Shown here one piece after another: positions 2,537 to 11,602 of a stretch of 20,229 nucleotides of DNA; the stretch's first letter is position 1; every line of letters starts with the position of its first letter. Source of the DNA: a virus; the IMG/VR virus record IMGVR_UViG_3300031840_000054, positions 1 through 20,229 of that record, one strand, 5' to 3'. Made by a program: the position numbers and the translations under genes. The notes under the pieces were generated by a model. It saw nothing but the letters and a program-made list of their open reading frames with translations. It did no database searches and had not been told where the DNA came from.

Positions 2537-5500
2537 CTATCGCAGGATGACACCCACTGTATCAGGTGGGATATCTGCTTTTTGTCTTAGTTCAGGAATC
2601 ATTGCCAGTCTTTTATCTCTTTCTATTTGCAAGTCTAACAACATATCACTTCTAACATTTGCGTTGATGTCTGTTCTGTTGAGAATCCTATCTCTTCTTT
2701 TTCTCCAATTCCTCATGTATCTTTCTATGGCTCTGACCTGACCTTTTGCATTTAACAGTCCTTGTACTTGGTTTCTGTAAGCGTAGAGTTCATCCATTCT
2801 GCCATCTTCTCTGAGAGAGTTCATGGTGGTCACAGCAGTATTAACCTCTTCTCTGAGTTTATAGAATTGTTGTTGCAGTCCTCCCATCCTTTCTTGATCG
2901 CCAACAAACCTACCAACAACAGGAATTTGTTTGATGTTAGGTGGCATGAGAGGTGTGCCAGTCACTGACCTTGCAAGAGCATCAGTGATAGTCAAGGCAT
3001 AACCTCCTAGTGTTCCTGTGTAGCCTTTGAAGATGTACTCAAGTTTGATTGGGGATATGTTAAATTGTTCTCCTATTAGTCTAAACAATTCATTAGTTGA
3101 CTCTCTTGTTTGATAGGCAGGTTTTTCTTTTTCCATAAAGTAAGGCACTATTTCTGAGTTAGTAAATGAGGCTCTATTAGTGACTGCTTCAAAGATAGGT
3201 TTGATTGCTTGTATGCTTACATCTCCACCTAAAAATGGTATATCAGCAGATGTGCTTAATTGTCTAGATACTGATTCTTTAAAATCTGTAATTGAAGTTT
3301 CAGAAAATGCATCTTCTCCACTAATTAAATCAAAAAATCTTTCAGGTATGGCTTTACCTAACATACCTATTTCAAATGGAATTGGTATATAAATAACATT
3401 GCCACCACCTATAGGAATGATCCAATTGTCATCTCTTTTTTCTAGCTTTTCTGCTTTATATTCATCAGTATCACTAACCAAAGCGTAATACAAAGCAGTT
3501 GTACCAATTAACACAGCCATTCTGCTTAATGCTCTACGCATAATCATGCCTTGTAAATCTTCTAATGAACCACCCTCTTGCAATTTATCTTGTGCAGAAT
3601 ATTTACCAGTAAATGATCTATACAGAACATCTAGACCTTGAACTCTTGCATTTAAAAAAGGAATTGCAGTAGTTAATATTTTAAAAGATGTTGATTGTCC
3701 ACGCCTTCCAAAGTTAATTATTTCTAATCCTTGATAAGCTGCTTCAGATTGAGCCTGAGCTTCTGTGTAATATTTTCCTGTGACTGGATCAATAGATTTT
3801 TTTAATTTTTTATAGACTGCATCTGCTACAGCTTTTCTAGTTGCTCCATCAGATTTAGTTGTTAAGTGACCCAATCCATCCCATAGTTTATAAAATGCTA
3901 CATCAGGTCTCATACCATTATTTGTTGAGAGTCCAGCTCTTCTTCTTGCTCTGTTTAAGAAATCTTTTACATCACCTTCGTCATTTGCAAAGTCATATCC
4001 ACCTATGACTCCAAACTCTTCTAATGAACTTATGTCACCAAATAAATTTTTAAATGAATCTATTACTGGTGTAAATCCTTCACCTCCTAATGGTGCACCA
4101 GAAGTAACTGCTGCAGACAATGTATCTCTTAATACATTAACAAATACAAATCCAGGATCACGAGTTACTGTATCTCTTAATAATCCTGCAGGCATTGCAA
4201 TAGCTTTCATAATTCCATCTACTTTAATACCACCTATAGATTGCATAGCCATAAATAAATCTATGTCTGCAATTTGATAATGTTTTTTATTTCCGTTTTC
4301 AAAAACAAATACACTATTTATTCCTGCTAATTTATTTTTATCTGTAATAAGAGTTGCTTCTTTTATTCCTTTTTCAGGATTATTAAGTTGTTCAAAGTCT
4401 CTTATAAGTTTTCTCATGCCATCATTCTTCATAGCAGCAGTTAAAATAGATAAAGAGTTTCTTGCTATAGCTTCTATAGGATCAACATCAATTTTTTCTT
4501 CAGACCCTTTCATTGGCATATTTAAAGGGTTGTTAGGCAGTGAGCCACCTGCAATGGTAGGTGCAGTAATATTTGCATCATCTACCATAGTTCTATAGAA
4601 AGGATAATAGCTTGAATGTTCTATCCATTTTGCAGCTTGATCTGCATCTAACAATCCTTTTTCAGTAGCAAACTTTACTAATCCATTGTTCCATTTTTGA
4701 TAGTTGTTATATGTTTCTACCACTACTGGATGTTCTCTTTCAATAGTTTCAATAGCTTGTAGTTCTTTAGAAGTAATTGGAGAGGCTATTTCTTCTCCTC
4801 TTTCATTTAATTTTTTAACTCTTTTTAACTTAGCATACAAAGCAAACACACCTTCTAAATCTACTTCAGGATCAGATTGAAGTGCTGATAGTATTTGCAT
4901 TAATCCACCTGTAGAAGTATCACCTTCAATTAATGGGTTATATCTTGTGTTAATTACTAAATCAATAACTTTAGTCAAAGAAGGTAATTTCTCTATAACA
5001 TCTACTGGTATACCTTTTAACAACATTTGTTGAAAAATACCTCTTGCTCTATCTGCCATACGAATTGCAGCTATACTTGCTGTATCTGCAGTGTTATTAG
5101 CTAGTCTAACTTCTTCATTTTCTTCTGATCCTTTAAGTATTCTTTTATCAAGAAGGTCTTTACTATCTATATAACTTTGTCTAAAAGTTTTAAATCTTTT
5201 TTTAATGCTGTTAATAGGGTCAGATGCAAAGTCAATTAATCTTGTGGCTTGTGATTGTTTAGGTGTAGCAACTCCTACTGCATCTGCAGCTTCTTGTAAA
5301 TTAGATGGCATAGCTCTAGAAAAAGTAGGTATGTCATCAGGTGCAGTCTTAAGAGGGTCTTGATTAAACTCTATAGCAGCTTCTAAGGCGATGTCTGAAG
5401 CGTTCATATTGTAAAAAGGTATATCACCCCTAGGTGTTTCTTTTGTTCTTTCTTCAGCTACCTTTACAGCTTCTCTTCTTTTGATGCTTTCATTAGAGTT

Positions 5501-8500
5501 GCCATCGCTAAAATTTCTAGATGCTCTGCTAAACAATGGTATGTCTTGAGGTGATGATTCTAGATATCCTAAATCTATTAAATTATCATAATGACTTTCT
5601 AATTGAGCACTATATCTAAAATCATTTTTTAGATTTGCTGGAACACTTTGTATTTGTTGAATTGAAAATAAAGCAGATTGTTTATCTTCATTATTTAATC
5701 TTTGTCTTTCTTGTATGCCATCTGGAAGAGTAGCTATTGCTAATGCTTGATTTATATTTTGATCATTAATAATATTTGTATCTACAAGTAATTCAACTTT
5801 ATCTGTTAATGATTTTTTAAATTGTGGTAATAAAAATTTTATTCCTAAATCTTCTAAATTATTAGCAGAATATATTTTTTCTTTTTGTGGTAATGCTTTG
5901 CCTGTTGGCTCAAACATAATAATTACTGGTGCATCAATAGCACCATCTTTTTGACCTAAAACTAATCTATGTCTACCTTCATGTCCTATAACTTTTCCAT
6001 CTTCGTTAATAGATAAATAAGGATATGCACCAACATATCTATTCATTCTTCTTGGTAATTTATTAAAAATATCTGGATCAAAATTAGGATTTAAAGCTAC
6101 TGTATCTCCCATAACATCAACATTTTTTGGTTTTTCAGATTTAATTAATTCAAAAATTGTTTTATCAGAAGTCAACATTAAAAAATCATCTATAGGCATC
6201 CTTGTAATAAAAGGTAAAACTAAACGAGAGGTATTTTCAGTTTCATTTTTTGCCCACTCATTTGTATATTCTAAATTTTCTTTTGTTAAATCTAAATATG
6301 CAGGTGAATCTTTAGTAGCTGCTCTACTAAATAAAGGTACTTGTTCTGGAGGTAGATTGTTTCTTTCTTCTACCAGTCTTGCTCTTTGTCCTTTAAGAAC
6401 ATCTATCTCATTAGACATTCTGTTGTAAGAAGCTGTGCCAAGGTATTGACCATCTTGTCGTAAAGTATTTTCTTTAATTTCTATTCGTCTATCAAGGTCA
6501 GCAATTCTATTATCTAACTCACCTCGTTTACTAATCCTTGAGAATGTAGGCACATCTTGTCTAGCTTCATTAAGAGTAACGCCTTCATCTAATATAAGTT
6601 TGTTTTCACCACGAACTCCATAGGTATAAGAACCATTTCTAAGAAGTTGTAGCCATAAATTTTTAACATTTGTAACAGCATCTTTTTTGTTAAAAGCATT
6701 TAAGTTTATTGATGAAATATCAGATTTAAGTGTTACACCATTAATTATTTGTTCTGCTGGTGATTCTAAATACCATGACCCATCATCAAATTTAAAAATT
6801 TGTAATTTATAATTATTAAGTTCTCCATTGTGATAAACAATATCCATACCAGCTTCTTCTGGTTTAGCTTTTGTATATGTAAATGGTTTAGTTACAACTA
6901 CTTCTGTAGGTCTAGTAGCAAAAGGAACTGTATCTGGCTCTTTAGGTTTTTTAGGTTTTTTTTCTGGTTCTATAGGCGGTGCTCTTGGCACTAATGATTC
7001 TAATCCTGTTTGTCCTAAATCTAAAACCTCTGCTGCATTAGATAAAAATGCAGATAATTCAGTATCTAATTTAGCTGGTATTCCTAATATTTTTCTTATA
7101 CTTTCTACAAAACCTTGCCATAAAGTTTTATTATTTTTATATGGAATACTTTCAAGCATTTTTTGAAAATTTCTATTTGTTAAACCAAAAGTAATCATTT
7201 CAGAAACATCTTGTTCTTTTTGTTTTCCTTTTCCAAATAATTGATAACCTATTTCAAATTCTCTAAATGCCTCTAAATTAATTTGAGAAAGATAAGTATT
7301 TTGTTGTATGTATGTATAAGGCACATCTGGATTTTCTTTAATAAATATTTGTGCTATTTCTGCTTCTATAGGATTATTTGCTGCTAAATCAAATAATTTT
7401 TCTGCTATTTCTTTTTGAACCTTAGAATTATCTAATTGTTTAGATGCATTTCTATAGTATTTAATTTTATCGTCATAATGTTTTTTAAGTCTTTTTTGTT
7501 GAGACTGTAATTCTTTATATGCATTTTCTACTCTAGCAAATGATTGAGCATCACCTGTTGCATTACCATCTTTAACAGCAAACATTTGAGCTACTGTTGC
7601 TTGATGAATATTTTCATGTAAAAGAGTTTCAAAATTTACTCCATTATTACTTCTCCATTGATCTTTATCAACATTATAAAAATCGTTAGGATCAGAAATT
7701 TGCATAGATAAAACAGCAGTTCTTTTTCGATTTGTTGCTATAGTTTTTCCGTCTGCTTGTAAAGGAGTTATTTGTCCTCTAAAACTATTTATTTTATTTT
7801 CTATTTCAAAAGGAAATTTATAACCAATTTTTTGCAAATCAAGTAAAGATTTATGAGTTTTTTGAGCAATAATTTTATAATCTTCACTAGGAGAATTATC
7901 TATTAGCCATTTAAGCATTTTAATAGAATCGTTATTTCCTTTTTTTGTGTTTATTACATTACCATCTGCATCAAAAATATCTTGATCTATTACTCCAGCT
8001 TTTTGTAAACCTAATAATATATTAGTTCTTTGTTGTATATATTCTTCATTACTTATACTTCTATTATCAAAAATAGTAGTAGGTTTAGAAGGTGTAACAG
8101 GTGGTGTTGCAACTGGTGGGGTAGTTGGTGTAGTAGTTAATGTATCAAACTCAGGATCAGAAGTAATATTATAAGGTTTAGAACTTATATTAGGGTAAAA
8201 AGTAAAAGTACCATCTTCATATCTTTTTACATCTGCATCAAAAATTTCTTTTGCTTTTCTTCCTTTAACTGTATTTGTATCAAAACCTGCAACTTTTAAT
8301 AATTCTTGTAAAAAATTTACATCACCATCTTCTTCAAATTTTTTTGCAAAGTTTTTTAGGTTTTTAGTTTGCGGAAGAAAATCTCTAAATACTTGATAAT
8401 CAGTAGCATCACCACCATTAAACTCAGAATAATACCTTACTAAGTGATTATAAGCATAAGGATTTTTAAATTTTATAGGAGGATTTTTTCCTTGAGGAAC

Positions 8501-11500
8501 AAGTGTTGTTGGTGCAACTGGTGTTGTTGGTGTTACAGGCGTAGTAGGTGTAGTAGGTGGCGTAGTAGTTGGTGTACTTCTAGGATCAAACGCTAAAGGT
8601 CTAGGACTTGTAGGTTTAACTTTTGTTTCTACTACTGGACCAGTAGGAGTCTCTGCATCATCTTCATAATCGGTCACAACTTGAGCTTGTGCTCTACCAG
8701 CTTGATCTAAGTCTCGTAAGGTTCTTATCTCACCTCTAGCTCTAGCTCCAACTCTACCTGCTTCTATGTCTTGGAATATATCTGCAGCTTTGTTGTAGCC
8801 TGATATCTTCATAGCATTGCCAATGCTTTGGAAGAACTGAACAATCTTGTTATAGATACCTTTAGCTTTAGGTGGTACATCTTTAGCCACTACTTCTCTA
8901 GCTCTAAATAGTTCTGCTATAGCTTCTTCTATATAGATTTCTTCTTTTTTATTTGTACTTGCACCATATTTTTCAATGCCTTTATTTATTCTTTTACTTC
9001 TATCATAAAAAGTTTCTTTTTTTTCAAAGGCTTGAGCATCAACTGCTTGAGGTACTCTTTTATTTTTAACTAAATTCTTTAAATATCTGTATTCACTTTC
9101 TGTAATTAAATCTTTAGCTCGTAAAGCATGAATCATTTCATGATCTAGAATTTTGTTTAATCGTGTTTGTATTTCTGCATCAGTAGCATTGCCATCAGGA
9201 TTAACTGCATTTAATGATAAGAAAATAATATCTGTATTTTTGTCGTATTCTCCTTCTACAGCACCTTCTTCGGCTGTTTCTCTTGTTATTCTAGGATCAA
9301 AAGCTATTTGCCCATCTTGTTCTTTTAATACTGAAGTAGATAAAATGTCATTACTTACAACTATACCTGTATCTTTTAAACCTCTAGCATCTAGAGACTT
9401 ACGCAATTCTTTAGCAAACTTATTGGTTCGCCCTTCTTCTATAGCTTCTGCAAAGTTTATGGTTTGTTCTTCTAGTTGTTCAGGAGGAGTGTAAGGTTCT
9501 TGTCTGGCTGTTTCGTTTTGAACCATTTGTTCAATAACTTCTGGTTTAAGTTCACCTTGGCTTTCTAACCTAGCACGAAACTCTTCAGGAGACTCGTTAA
9601 AGCCTTCTGCTCTTCTGGCAATATCAAACTCAAAGTTAGGTCTAATTTGTCTTACAGAGGTTAAAAATCCTTTCTCTTTACCTTTAACAAACTGTGCTCT
9701 ACCACTTTGATCTAAGTCTCGCAAAAAATCTGAAGCAGCAAGTGTAGATATTTCTCTATTTCCTAAAAAGTTTTGTACATCTTTACCAGTAAATTCAGTT
9801 GAGCCTATGGTTGCTACAAAGTCTGCAGTATCTTTTGCAGAGTAAGCTCTAGGTGCAAAGTTAGGAAATGGGGTTTTAACATTAAAGGAAGGAAGAGAGT
9901 GAAGTTTAGCCAAGAACAATTCTTTTTGTCCTTTGCTCATCTTGGAATAATTTGATTCACCAGTATATAGTTTTGCTGCATAGTTTACAGCAGGAGTATT
10001 GAAGTCTAGTTCTATGTTTTTACCAGCAGCAAACTCTTTAATATATTTTCTAGATGTATCAATGGTTTGTTTGCCATCACGAATAGATGGTATGCCGTTT
10101 TTTTCTGAAGTTTCAAATATTTTGGCTGCAGCATCAGATGCAAACTGATTAAACTGTGATTTGTTTAATAGTTTTTGTGCATCTGCAATGGTGTATTGAT
10201 TTTGAAATGGAAGTTTGTTGTAAGTACCTGCAGTCTCTAGCTCTTCTCTATACTCTTTAAGAGTTTTGTTTTTAGCTTTAGGGTCATACTTAATAATTGT
10301 ATTAATGCCAACAGATATAGAGTTTGGATTTAATAAACTTTCACCAATCCTATATGCAGTAGAACTGTTAATAAGTCCTTGAGAATATAGATCGTTGTTT
10401 AGTTGTTGTATGATTTGTGTTTGTGCAAAAGCATCTTTAACTTTTTTGTTTTCAGCTAAGGCTTCTGCTTGAGTTGGCACTGTTTTAATAACAGGGTTTT
10501 CAAGATTGTTTTGATCCAACAAAGAAAATGTTGAATCGGTATTTTCTATAATTTGTAAGTCAGGTGCAATTGCAGGTTCTACTGGTGCAGGTATGTTTGG
10601 AGCAACTTTAAATGGTTGATCTTGTATTACTGGTAATACACCTTGTTGTTCTGCTAGTTCTGCTTTTTTAGCTTCAATTAATTTATTAGAATCTACTTTG
10701 GCTCGTTCTGCTCTTTCACCTTCTTCATGAGTAGCAATACCTCTACGCTTTTGCATACTGTTAAAGACAAGATCAGCAGTACCACCGACAATACCACCAA
10801 GAGTAAACTCTTCAAATACACTATCTATTAATGGTAGTTCATCGCTGTATAAACCACGAGCAACCATATTTTGTAATAAACTTGCTGCTACTTCTTGAGC
10901 ACCTTCAAATGTTCCTGACTGTGCAGCAGACTTCATGTACTCAAGTATGAGTTGTTTAGTTGGTAAATCTTCTAATGCTTTCCTTGGAACTTTCTTTAAG
11001 ATATTAGCAACAGGCATTATTTCTGTAGCACCTATAGCACCACCAAGTAATGTGGCTACAGTTTCTTTAAAACCACCTACTTCTTCTCCTAATCCTCTAG
11101 AGGCTTCAATAAGATCAGCTTGTTGACCCATACCTGCTGGAACTGCTAAACCTAATGGAATACCATACTGTCCTGCTCTTGCACCTATTGTACCTGCTTT
11201 AGCTAATGCTCCACCTACTACACCAGCTCCTAAAAAAGGAATAAAAGAACCAAATGCACCACCTAGTTTTGTGCTGTATAAATCTTCATAACCAGCTTCA
11301 GGTGCTAGTGCTGAATCTTCTTGTAAATATTTTTCAAAGTCAGTAATGCCTTTATATAAATCGCTGTCATCACCGACATCAAACAAAGCAACTGGACCTT
11401 TAATGGCAGAAGCTAATGTAGCCAAACCTTGTCTAGGTATAGCTTTACCAAACTCAACAGCTCTACCACTAAGTGTTGGTTCATCTATATTAAATCCATC

Positions 11501-11602
11501 ATACTGTCTACTTACAGCAGCAGCTAATTCAGACCTTTTTACAGGGTCTAAATTATCTGGAATTTTAATTACCTTCCCATCAGGCAAAGTTACTTCTTTC
11601 AT
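2537..11602 (-). CDS. Giant polyvalent-type ejection (internal virion) protein, 3021 aa
   Basis: This is the last and by far largest gene of the leftward virion operon, one base after the 531-aa gene. Visible layout: a short N-terminal segment; Gly/Ala-rich hydrophobic segments at about 113-160, 181-203 and 263-281; a metallopeptidase-like domain with HEMIH (821-825) and E893 or E897; Pro/Thr linkers near 1008-1033 and 1155-1175; a second HExxH (1329-1333) with E1468; a Lys/Pro-rich linker near 1550; a ParB/Srx-like GHEGRHR (1873-1879); and a C-terminal region of about 900 residues around RDPGFVFVNVLRDTLSA (from 2481) that resembles LPD38 of large polyvalent proteins. Established knowledge: polyvalent proteins of phages and conjugative elements are thought to enter the recipient with the DNA, and T7 gp16, P22 gp16 and N4 vRNAP are ejected last-gene giants. 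Ejection and the individual activities here are inferred. No polymerase motif was recognised. Confidence 0.85.
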   Translation of the reverse strand: MKEVTLPDGKVIKIPDNLDPVKRSELAAAVSRQYDGFNIDEPTLSGRAVEFGKAIPRQGLATLASAIKGPVALFDVGDDSDLYKGITDFEKYLQEDSALAPEAGYEDLYSTKLGGAFGSFIPFLGAGVVGGALAKAGTIGARAGQYGIPLGLAVPAGMGQQADLIEASRGLGEEVGGFKETVATLLGGAIGATEIMPVANILKKVPRKALEDLPTKQLILEYMKSAAQSGTFEGAQEVAASLLQNMVARGLYSDELPLIDSVFEEFTLGGIVGGTADLVFNSMQKRRGIATHEEGERAERAKVDSNKLIEAKKAELAEQQGVLPVIQDQPFKVAPNIPAPVEPAIAPDLQIIENTDSTFSLLDQNNLENPVIKTVPTQAEALAENKKVKDAFAQTQIIQQLNNDLYSQGLINSSTAYRIGESLLNPNSISVGINTIIKYDPKAKNKTLKEYREELETAGTYNKLPFQNQYTIADAQKLLNKSQFNQFASDAAAKIFETSEKNGIPSIRDGKQTIDTSRKYIKEFAAGKNIELDFNTPAVNYAAKLYTGESNYSKMSKGQKELFLAKLHSLPSFNVKTPFPNFAPRAYSAKDTADFVATIGSTEFTGKDVQNFLGNREISTLAASDFLRDLDQSGRAQFVKGKEKGFLTSVRQIRPNFEFDIARRAEGFNESPEEFRARLESQGELKPEVIEQMVQNETARQEPYTPPEQLEEQTINFAEAIEEGRTNKFAKELRKSLDARGLKDTGIVVSNDILSTSVLKEQDGQIAFDPRITRETAEEGAVEGEYDKNTDIIFLSLNAVNPDGNATDAEIQTRLNKILDHEMIHALRAKDLITESEYRYLKNLVKNKRVPQAVDAQAFEKKETFYDRSKRINKGIEKYGASTNKKEEIYIEEAIAELFRAREVVAKDVPPKAKGIYNKIVQFFQSIGNAMKISGYNKAADIFQDIEAGRVGARARGEIRTLRDLDQAGRAQAQVVTDYEDDAETPTGPVVETKVKPTSPRPLAFDPRSTPTTTPPTTPTTPVTPTTPVAPTTLVPQGKNPPIKFKNPYAYNHLVRYYSEFNGGDATDYQVFRDFLPQTKNLKNFAKKFEEDGDVNFLQELLKVAGFDTNTVKGRKAKEIFDADVKRYEDGTFTFYPNISSKPYNITSDPEFDTLTTTPTTPPVATPPVTPSKPTTIFDNRSISNEEYIQQRTNILLGLQKAGVIDQDIFDADGNVINTKKGNNDSIKMLKWLIDNSPSEDYKIIAQKTHKSLLDLQKIGYKFPFEIENKINSFRGQITPLQADGKTIATNRKRTAVLSMQISDPNDFYNVDKDQWRSNNGVNFETLLHENIHQATVAQMFAVKDGNATGDAQSFARVENAYKELQSQQKRLKKHYDDKIKYYRNASKQLDNSKVQKEIAEKLFDLAANNPIEAEIAQIFIKENPDVPYTYIQQNTYLSQINLEAFREFEIGYQLFGKGKQKEQDVSEMITFGLTNRNFQKMLESIPYKNNKTLWQGFVESIRKILGIPAKLDTELSAFLSNAAEVLDLGQTGLESLVPRAPPIEPEKKPKKPKEPDTVPFATRPTEVVVTKPFTYTKAKPEEAGMDIVYHNGELNNYKLQIFKFDDGSWYLESPAEQIINGVTLKSDISSINLNAFNKKDAVTNVKNLWLQLLRNGSYTYGVRGENKLILDEGVTLNEARQDVPTFSRISKRGELDNRIADLDRRIEIKENTLRQDGQYLGTASYNRMSNEIDVLKGQRARLVEERNNLPPEQVPLFSRAATKDSPAYLDLTKENLEYTNEWAKNETENTSRLVLPFITRMPIDDFLMLTSDKTIFELIKSEKPKNVDVMGDTVALNPNFDPDIFNKLPRRMNRYVGAYPYLSINEDGKVIGHEGRHRLVLGQKDGAIDAPVIIMFEPTGKALPQKEKIYSANNLEDLGIKFLLPQFKKSLTDKVELLVDTNIINDQNINQALAIATLPDGIQERQRLNNEDKQSALFSIQQIQSVPANLKNDFRYSAQLESHYDNLIDLGYLESSPQDIPLFSRASRNFSDGNSNESIKRREAVKVAEERTKETPRGDIPFYNMNASDIALEAAIEFNQDPLKTAPDDIPTFSRAMPSNLQEAADAVGVATPKQSQATRLIDFASDPINSIKKRFKTFRQSYIDSKDLLDKRILKGSEENEEVRLANNTADTASIAAIRMADRARGIFQQMLLKGIPVDVIEKLPSLTKVIDLVINTRYNPLIEGDTSTGGLMQILSALQSDPEVDLEGVFALYAKLKRVKKLNERGEEIASPITSKELQAIETIEREHPVVVETYNNYQKWNNGLVKFATEKGLLDADQAAKWIEHSSYYPFYRTMVDDANITAPTIAGGSLPNNPLNMPMKGSEEKIDVDPIEAIARNSLSILTAAMKNDGMRKLIRDFEQLNNPEKGIKEATLITDKNKLAGINSVFVFENGNKKHYQIADIDLFMAMQSIGGIKVDGIMKAIAMPAGLLRDTVTRDPGFVFVNVLRDTLSAAVTSGAPLGGEGFTPVIDSFKNLFGDISSLEEFGVIGGYDFANDEGDVKDFLNRARRRAGLSTNNGMRPDVAFYKLWDGLGHLTTKSDGATRKAVADAVYKKLKKSIDPVTGKYYTEAQAQSEAAYQGLEIINFGRRGQSTSFKILTTAIPFLNARVQGLDVLYRSFTGKYSAQDKLQEGGSLEDLQGMIMRRALSRMAVLIGTTALYYALVSDTDEYKAEKLEKRDDNWIIPIGGGNVIYIPIPFEIGMLGKAIPERFFDLISGEDAFSETSITDFKESVSRQLSTSADIPFLGGDVSIQAIKPIFEAVTNRASFTNSEIVPYFMEKEKPAYQTRESTNELFRLIGEQFNISPIKLEYIFKGYTGTLGGYALTITDALARSVTGTPLMPPNIKQIPVVGRFVGDQERMGGLQQQFYKLREEVNTAVTTMNSLREDGRMDELYAYRNQVQGLLNAKGQVRAIERYMRNWRKRRDRILNRTDINANVRSDMLLDLQIERDKRLAMIPELRQKADIPPDTVGVILR
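5315..5335 (-). other. DIPTFSR motif, copy 4 (residues 2090-2096)
   Basis: This copy sits directly before the C-terminal LPD38-like region of about 925 residues. The serine codon is TCT, and it is followed by Ala-Met-Pro. Confidence 0.7.
5525..5545 (-). other. DIPLFSR motif, copy 3 (residues 2020-2026)
   Basis: This copy ends the ParB/Srx-like segment and starts a short charged linker of about 63 residues. The serine codon is AGC, and it is followed by Ala-Ser. Confidence 0.7.
5966..5983 (-). other. ParB/sulfiredoxin-like GHEGRHR motif in the giant protein
   Basis: Residues 1874-1879 read H-E-G-R-H-R, preceded by I-N-E-D-G-K-V-I-G and followed by a hydrophobic helix, a Gly-Ala turn and A-P-V-I-I-M. 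This strand, EGRHR, helix, G-x2-(A/V)-P-V arrangement resembles the nucleotide-binding core of ParB/Srx-fold domains, which are known in polyvalent proteins. The fold assignment is inference from the motif only. Confidence 0.5.
6323..6343 (-). other. QVPLFSR motif, copy 2 (residues 1754-1760)
   Basis: This copy sits between the short coiled coil (about 1690-1753) and the segment with the ParB/Srx-like motif. The serine codon is AGT, and it is followed by Ala-Ala. Confidence 0.7.
6536..6556 (-). other. DVPTFSR motif, copy 1 (residues 1683-1689)
   Basis: First of four related heptapeptides of pattern (D/Q)-(I/V)-P-(L/T)-F-S-R in the giant protein. It ends the segment after the second zincin and precedes a short coiled coil. 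The serine codon is TCA. Confidence 0.7.
7601..7618 (-). other. Second zincin active site (HENIH) in the giant protein
   Basis: Residues 1329-1333 read His-Glu-Asn-Ile-His, preceded by Leu-Leu and followed by Q-A-T. About 135 residues on comes V-S-E1468-M-I-T-F-G-L-T-N, then LWQGFVESIRKILG, an arrangement typical of phage zincins with a distant third ligand. It is unrelated in local sequence to the HEMIH domain, so this is not a simple duplication. Confidence 0.7.
8077..8141 (-). repeat. Second Pro/Thr-rich linker in the giant gene
   Basis: A second Thr/Pro-rich stretch (about residues 1155-1175), similar in composition to 8503-8577. The two bracket a domain of about 120 residues and precede the second zincin region. 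Confidence 0.65.
8503..8577 (-). repeat. Pro/Thr-rich linker repeat in the giant gene
   Basis: Low-complexity coding repeat built from Thr-Pro and Thr-Thr-Pro units (about residues 1009-1033) with Val and Ala interruptions. It separates the first zincin region from the following segment and is probably an extended interdomain linker. The short GT-rich units are prone to slippage. Confidence 0.75.
8687..8719 (-). repeat. LRDLDQAGRAQ repeat, copy 2 (residues 962-972)
   Basis: This 33-base stretch matches 9692-9724 at 29 of 33 positions and encodes the same undecapeptide except Ala for Ser. It lies just after the first zincin domain and before the first Pro/Thr linker. Confidence 0.75.
9125..9142 (-). 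other. First zincin active site (HEMIH) in the giant protein
   Basis: Residues 821-825 read His-Glu-Met-Ile-His, followed by Ala-Leu-Arg and an E-S-E-Y-R helix. A downstream EEAIAELFR (892-900) can supply the third zinc ligand, E893 or E897. The pattern of HE.(V/I)HALR, an acidic/aromatic helix and later E.(I/V)AE.FR is one I associate with peptidases embedded in phage polyvalent proteins. All expected catalytic residues are present. Confidence 0.75.
9692..9724 (-). repeat. LRDLDQSGRAQ repeat, copy 1 (residues 627-637)
   Basis: Partner of 8687-8719, in direct orientation about 1 kb away. It lies before the first zincin domain, so the two copies bracket residues 638-961. Confidence 0.75.

Follow-up and report, generated by a model that had tools for sequence, protein, structure and literature searches.

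A putative self-processing zincin and an exchangeable second zincin in a giant polyvalent-type phage protein

Two zincin-type domains in one chain

Why would a single phage protein carry two zincin-type metallopeptidase sites, and what would each of them cut? The question is raised by the largest open reading frame (ORF) of the IMG/VR virus record IMGVR_UViG_3300031840_000054, hereafter the window (the whole stretch of 20,229 bases, to which all position numbers refer). This ORF (2537..11602; minus strand, as are all features of the protein given below) encodes a giant polyvalent-type protein of 3021 amino acids, including the stop, in which Pfam recognizes LPD38. An earlier note, made from the DNA alone, had called attention to two HExxH motifs, HEMIH at residues 821-825 (9128..9142), in a domain denoted here Z1 (residues 721-960; 8723..9442), and HENIH at residues 1329-1333 (7604..7618), in a module denoted Z2 (approximately residues 1171-1530; 7013..8092). 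Motif scans confirmed both and revealed a third one that had been overlooked, HEGRH at residues 1874-1878 (5969..5983). When the protein was shuffled 5,000 times, at least one HExxH arose by chance in 0.7% of the permutations, and two in none. As detailed below, a short linker motif between Z1 and the C-terminal core is present in nearly all evaluable relatives with an intact Z1 and gone from all those with a broken Z1 active site, and Z2 is swapped among close relatives. On balance, we lean slightly towards the reading that Z1 processes the giant protein at the linker motif, with Z2 serving as an exchangeable effector.

Z1, a putative gluzincin-type protease

Successive searches with residues 721-960 as the query yielded 24 viral contigs, then 67 and finally 7 more (74 loci in all), exclusively from uncultured phages, apart from one contig of a Pelagibacter metagenome-assembled genome (MAG). 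Among 50,697 annotated phage records, neither of two Z1 queries found a match. In the first search set, the Z1 active site was broken in 10 of the 65 typeable loci (hereafter, Z1-dead), with spellings at the HExxH position that include GQIIH, AQVIH, GNVIE, KEVVS and GDLIK. These natural losses allow the 51 columns conserved to at least 95% across 57 distinct intact domains to be compared with their counterparts in 8 dead domains. HExxH is conserved in 57 of the 57 intact domains; in the dead ones, H821 and E893 are kept in none, E822 and E897 in one each, and H825 in five, the next-worst of the 51 columns still being kept in six.

The earlier note had proposed E893 or E897 as the third zinc ligand. 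The present comparison favors the former (codon 8924..8926), which is intact in all 57 domains and is the best candidate because it is lost along with H821 in all 8 dead domains; E893 is most likely the third ligand of Z1, with E897, kept in a single dead domain, perhaps aiding. In the AlphaFold2 model of Z1, which is of moderate confidence (predicted local distance difference test score, pLDDT, 77; predicted template modeling score, pTM, 0.52), E893 lies on a later helix (163-180 in model numbering). The order of predicted elements in both Z1 and Z2, namely, a helix, strands, the HExxH helix and a later Glu helix, is compatible with a zincin. When the Z1 model was compared with known structures by VIA-align, the top rows were mostly zincins, with Z at most 6.8 and all below 8; Foldseek gave no match to this model at E 0.001 or better. 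The top rows were the mini-zincins Acel_2062 (3e11), selecase and proabylysin, with Z 6.8 (root-mean-square deviation (rmsd) 3.5, 90 aligned residues) and Z 6.5 (rmsd 2.7, 71 aligned); unlike in these, the HExxH and Glu helices of Z1 are separated by a long stretch. The best reading of these data is that Z1 is a gluzincin-type protease that presumably binds zinc.

A linker motif that is lost together with the Z1 active site

Between Z1 and the constant C-terminal core (residues 2097-3021; 2537..5314), the window protein contains four copies of a linker motif, [D/Q]-[IVL]-P-x-F-S-R. These candidate cleavage sites are VPTFSR at residues 1684-1689 (6536..6553), VPLFSR at 1755-1760 (6323..6340), IPLFSR at 2021-2026 (5525..5542) and IPTFSR at 2091-2096 (5315..5332), the last occupying a fixed place before the core. 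The 133 distinct sites collected from 55 Z1-intact proteins mostly start with Asp or Gln, followed by Ile, Leu or Val, then Pro, then Leu, Thr or Asn, and then Phe, Ser and Arg. In these 55 proteins, the pattern was counted 166 times, compared with 0-2 times for reversed or permuted patterns. The motif is largely confined to the giant proteins: strict matches number 160 in their 175,443 amino acids, as against a single one in the 193,107 amino acids of 681 other ORFs. In 47 Z1-intact proteins, the strict motif occurs nowhere before the end of Z1, and among the same 47 there are 37 pairs of sites spaced 68-71 residues apart; in the window protein, sites 3 and 4 enclose such a conserved module, of 64 residues (5333..5524). 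Five matches of the type APLY/SPLY-S-R/K within the core (L009, L010, L011, L059, L061) were set aside and not counted as linker sites because a conserved core stretch, APLY in the alignment consensus, explains them.

To relate the motif to the state of Z1, we classified the 74 loci and set aside 19 of them (15 truncated ahead of the core and 4 identical), leaving 55 evaluable proteins, of which 47 are Z1-intact and 8 Z1-dead. Of the 47 intact proteins, 44 carry one or more motifs in the stretch from Z1 to the core (152 motifs), compared with none of the 8 dead ones (Fisher p 1.4e-7, a value that ignores relatedness and is not to stand alone). When the intact L004 is aligned with the dead L013, other residues stand at two motif positions between flanks that remain alignable, and the last site, preceding the core, is erased in all Z1-dead rows shown in the alignment. 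On a tree of the core, built without Z1 and without the linkers, the Z1 state changes three times, at least two of these changes being forced by the starred branches, and the motif changes along with it in two of two independent pairs.

The motif follows Z1 and not Z2 because the 10 Z1-intact proteins without Z2 keep 2-5 motifs each, whereas all 8 Z1-dead proteins retain the HExxH of Z2 and yet have no motif between Z1 and the core. A single relative of Z1, L140 (NZIO01000027.1), with five motifs, was found in the genome contigs searched; its contig, binned as a Candidatus Pelagibacter MAG, either provides a lead to the host or is a binned phage contig. This MAG and distant matches of the core to pelagiphages make SAR11 hosts a lead.

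Z2, a member of a known phage family that is exchanged among close relatives

All 39 aligned Z2 rows keep H1329, E1330, H1333 and E1468 without exception, which supports the earlier proposal of E1468 (7199..7201) as the likely third zinc ligand of Z2. The Z2 profile matched the internal virion protein 9sfn_G, of the phiKMV gp37 type, at E 2.7e-31 and, weakly, the chains of the N4 virion RNA polymerase (vRNAP; E 0.007-0.011), in both cases across the HExxH and the later Glu, and 31 of the 39 rows matched PHROG 2206. Because of the profile match to 9sfn_G and the HEAVH of gp37, we assign Z2 to a known phage family, that of the phiKMV gp37 and N4 vRNAP zincins. The earlier note had missed this membership, as it had the linker motif. 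The Z2 model has a pLDDT of 83.6 and a pTM of 0.83; its best structural match by VIA was the SprT-type 6mdw (Z 4.8), with mixed rows below, and Foldseek returned only noise.

The two zincins appear unrelated to each other, as the note had claimed. In a profile-profile comparison, the probability was 2.7%, and each domain occurs without the other: a second zincin-type HExxH is missing from the stretch between Z1 and the core in 10 of the 47 evaluable Z1-intact proteins, and 7 proteins have Z2 without Z1. A duplication origin was rejected on these grounds, that is, the two are not recent duplicates because no sequence relation is detectable and their distributions are independent. Within the Z2 family, one of the Z2-only proteins, L117, contains two HELLH domains in one chain (residues 1262 and 2348, with APLFSR between them), probably a duplication.

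Compared with L002, its nearest relative, the window protein shows about 90% identity along most of the chain (about 92% in the constant N-terminal region, residues 1-720; 9443..11602); the exceptions are two blocks of low identity, one covering the Z2 body (approximately 1170-1470) and the other lying between the sites at 1755 and 2021. The latter, a cargo segment (residues 1761-2020; 5543..6322) that holds HEGRH, is absent from L002; in the distant L054, it is 85% identical, compared with only 44% for the N-terminus, 57% for Z1 and 59% for the core. The same pattern recurs in four pairs (L042/L046, L053/L055, L035/L038 and L031/L033), with 96-99% identity in the core, 96-99% in Z1 and 45-54% in Z2. 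Outside the low-identity blocks, these proteins are 95-97% identical; the Z2 block, at 41-58% identity, runs from about residue 990 to about 1255-1485, and the cargo blocks differ too. The swapped Z2 block extends from just past Z1 to near the first site. More generally, in 57 of 66 close pairs with core identity from 72% to between 98% and 99% (71 pairs were compared, and the 5 at 99% were left out), similarity is lower for Z2 than for Z1. Z2 is therefore best read as an exchangeable module, and Z1 as a constant part of the backbone. These patterns lend support to the division of labor guessed in the earlier note and give it a direction, with Z1 tracking the linker motif and Z2 being swapped like cargo.

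A tentative polyprotein model and its alternatives

In its full form, the scheme that we propose is tentative, with somewhat less than even chances of being correct: the protein would behave like a viral polyprotein within an ejected phage protein, in which the backbone zincin Z1 cuts at [IVL]PxFSR and frees recombining cassettes, including a host-aimed Z2. Z1 would act on its own chain, either in cis or from one copy to another, by cutting at [D/Q]-[I/V/L]-P-[L/T/N]-F-S-R (residues 1684, 1755, 2021 and 2091). If the scissile bond is assumed to lie between Phe and Ser, the products would be an N-terminal part of about 187 kDa with Z1 and Z2, small spacers, a cargo of about 30 kDa and an LPD38 core of about 103 kDa. 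A cargo between two sites could be exchanged as a cassette with the rest unharmed, because each piece would be released. Z2 would not be the processing enzyme and, most likely, would act outside the chain, for example, on a host protein after ejection. The data show the anatomy, sequences, conservation, co-occurrence, co-loss and swapping; zinc binding, cleavage, where and when it takes place (ahead of packaging, within the head or following ejection) and what Z2 targets are inferred.

Several observations weigh against this scheme. There are only 2-3 independent losses of Z1, with a sign test p of 0.5, and no phylogenetic test can reach significance because these losses are too few. In the Z1-intact proteins L009, L059 and L061, the sole trace of the motif is a degenerate DIP[L/R]WSAPS at the last position, and no motif was found in L008 and L012, which belong to the Z1-intact set and are incomplete, reaching past Z2. 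Among more distant full-length proteins with an intact Z1 and a shared core, P-x-F-S-[R/K] occurs in 4 of 7 distinct ones (present in L207, L212, L213, L214 and L215, absent from L210, L211, L217 and L218; the close, non-identical pairs L212/L214 and L217/L218 are each counted once). L117, in which no Z1 is detectable, has one APLFSR in a Pro-rich linker (the six other Z2-only proteins have no motif), and the Z1-dead L021 has LPDFSK, located upstream of Z1. P-x-[FYW]-S-[RK] is absent from seven cultured-phage proteins (six core matches and one neighbor). Finally, the fold match of Z1 in VIA-align is modest, and the codons of the motif are unusually uniform. At the pre-core position, some of the proteins L210-L218 show PPKFHR, PAKFHR or PRRFNR in place of PxFSR, which may be a shifted cleavage signal.

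The same data bear on who cuts, or whether anything does. We consider it unlikely that another protease, a phage prohead protease or a host enzyme, cuts the motif and that Z1 is linked to it through shared descent alone. Such an arrangement has a precedent in phage P1, where, as described in the accessible portion of PMC12810830, a separate prohead protease, Pro, trims DarA, and it would accommodate both the small number of independent Z1 losses and the motif of L117; however, it does not account well for the joint disappearance of the Z1 catalytic residues and the motifs from every Z1-dead protein (0 of 8), on 2-3 branches and with alignable flanks, or for the near absence of the motif elsewhere on the same contigs (1 in 681 ORFs). 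It is improbable, too, that the motif is only a DNA-level recombination anchor, or a spacer that keeps cassettes exchangeable, with no cutting involved. The cassette borders do coincide with the motifs, two 15-base spellings account for 61 of the 162 occurrences, and the Pro codon is CCT in 146 of 162, against a background of 54%, so that copying of DNA, indicated by motif codons more uniform than the background, makes a contribution. Nevertheless, there are 58 different 15-base spellings, and the Ser codons come from both boxes (95 AGY and 62 TCN), which points to selection on the peptide, and an anchor would leave unexplained why the motif is lost together with the catalytic residues of Z1.

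A role of Z2 in processing, instead of Z1 or along with it, appears very unlikely. Both zincins have full active sites in the window protein, and the available text of PMC5512222 proposes self-processing for polyvalent zincins generally; but the 10 Z1-intact proteins without Z2 retain their motifs and the Z1-dead ones, all with the Z2 HExxH, have none, and the same text has the N4 vRNAP, which includes a related domain, packaged unprocessed. Only a small probability, finally, attaches to both domains being zincin folds in a structural or ejection role, devoid of protease activity. Some lineages do persist with a dead Z1, and the accessible part of the N4 cryo-EM preprint (PMC12633501) describes a conserved HExxH in the C1 domain and states no activity; against this, none of the catalytic residues varies among the 57 intact Z1 domains or the 39 Z2 rows, a degree of conservation beyond what the fold alone would need.

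Relation to known systems

The window protein shows the hallmarks of polyvalent proteins, that is, a giant multidomain chain, the polyvalent-associated LPD38, zincins and a late virion gene neighborhood. As reported in the available text of Iyer et al. 2017 (PMC5512222), polyvalent proteins are likewise giant and multidomain, with a C-terminal LPD38 and zincin-like metallopeptidases; zincins are their commonest domain, suggested to act in self-processing or on host targets, with 1-5 zincin-like domains in about 36% of the proteins and more than one in about 8%, either of that subset or of all. Accordingly, two zincins in one polyvalent protein and the idea of self-processing are already published there, the latter as a hypothesis, whereas that text gives no cleavage-site motif and no co-loss test. 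The Asp found three residues past HExxH in one polyvalent phage clade (same text) corresponds to R828 in Z1 and T1336 in Z2. The phiKMV gp37 type (PDB 9sfn chain G; NC_005045 gp37) aligns to Z2 over HEAVH and the third-ligand Glu, to which E1468 corresponds; in gp37, a protein of 1337 amino acids, a scan with.P.[FYWRL][SA][RK].. returned only APGLARRA-like matches and no P-x-F-S-R. The C1 domain of the N4 vRNAP (gp50; PDB 9pnr and others) matches the Z2 profile weakly; in the window protein, unlike the N4 one, neither Pfam nor PHROG recognized a T7-like RNA polymerase domain, and PHROG 2206 matched only at residues 1301-1524. The internal head proteins DarA and DdrB of P1 are ejected antirestriction proteins, and DarA is trimmed proteolytically, according to the accessible portion of PMC12810830, by a separate prohead protease, unlike the cutting by the protein's own zincin that we propose.

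What is new here is the candidate cleavage site, its co-loss with Z1 and the assignment of roles to Z1 and Z2; in the literature searched, which did not cover subscription papers, we found no P-x-F-S-R-type site, no co-loss with Z1 and no such split of roles. Together, the candidate site, the natural series of active-site losses and the zincin assignment make the self-processing idea of 2017 testable with one small construct. If the proposed scheme is correct, P-x-F-S-R motifs would mark the borders of effectors in phage giant proteins and aid the search for injected effectors, the swapping of Z2 would point to a host-facing target under changing selection, and the polyprotein reading might account for the way in which such phages assemble and rearrange their injected proteins.

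Cargo segments and gene context

HEGRH, in the context [G/S/A/R]-HEGRHR listed for 11 proteins, was rejected as a third zincin on motif context and is probably not a zincin motif. This context resembles a ParB-type motif; a PHROG scan of seven cargo segments, six of them with HEGRH, gave no match to ParB, and Pfam assigned HEGRH to no family either. The cargo families cluster into 14 groups. Among 62 cargo segments, Pfam detected ART-PolyVal in three, the other matches being weak, and a PHROG of the ParB C-terminal type was found in two. Single cargos include L065:12362-13540, which matches ART-PolyVal weakly (E 1.8e-4, short of the curated cut-off), and L074:11810-12130, with weak matches to acetyltransferase models (E 0.04). 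Two cargos between two motifs contain a further zincin-like HEAIH, in addition to Z1 and Z2 (L072, residue 1758; L076, residue 1388).

Pfam identified LPD38, in the core of the window protein (residues 2713-2887; 2942-3466; E 1.2e-32), as its one clear domain, with only a weak SprT-like match otherwise. Near-identical LRDLDQ[S/A]GRAQ stretches flank Z1 at residues 627 and 962 (approximately 9700-9724 and 8696-8719); the repeat was considered as a second cleavage signal and rejected, being present, among the scanned loci, only in L001-L003. The genes upstream of the giant one match PHROGs of a DNA ejection protein (4e-8), a virion structural protein (5e-76), tail fiber(s) and an endolysin. Because of these virion and ejection matches, and considering the relatives, it is reasonable to regard the giant protein as a virion protein. 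At the DNA level, no phage relatives of the window were found. Two small ORFs on the plus strand complete the picture: residues of the one at 672-992 resemble what we take to be an HNH/Ref-type nuclease, and those of the one at 1487-1894, presumably, a RusA-type resolvase.

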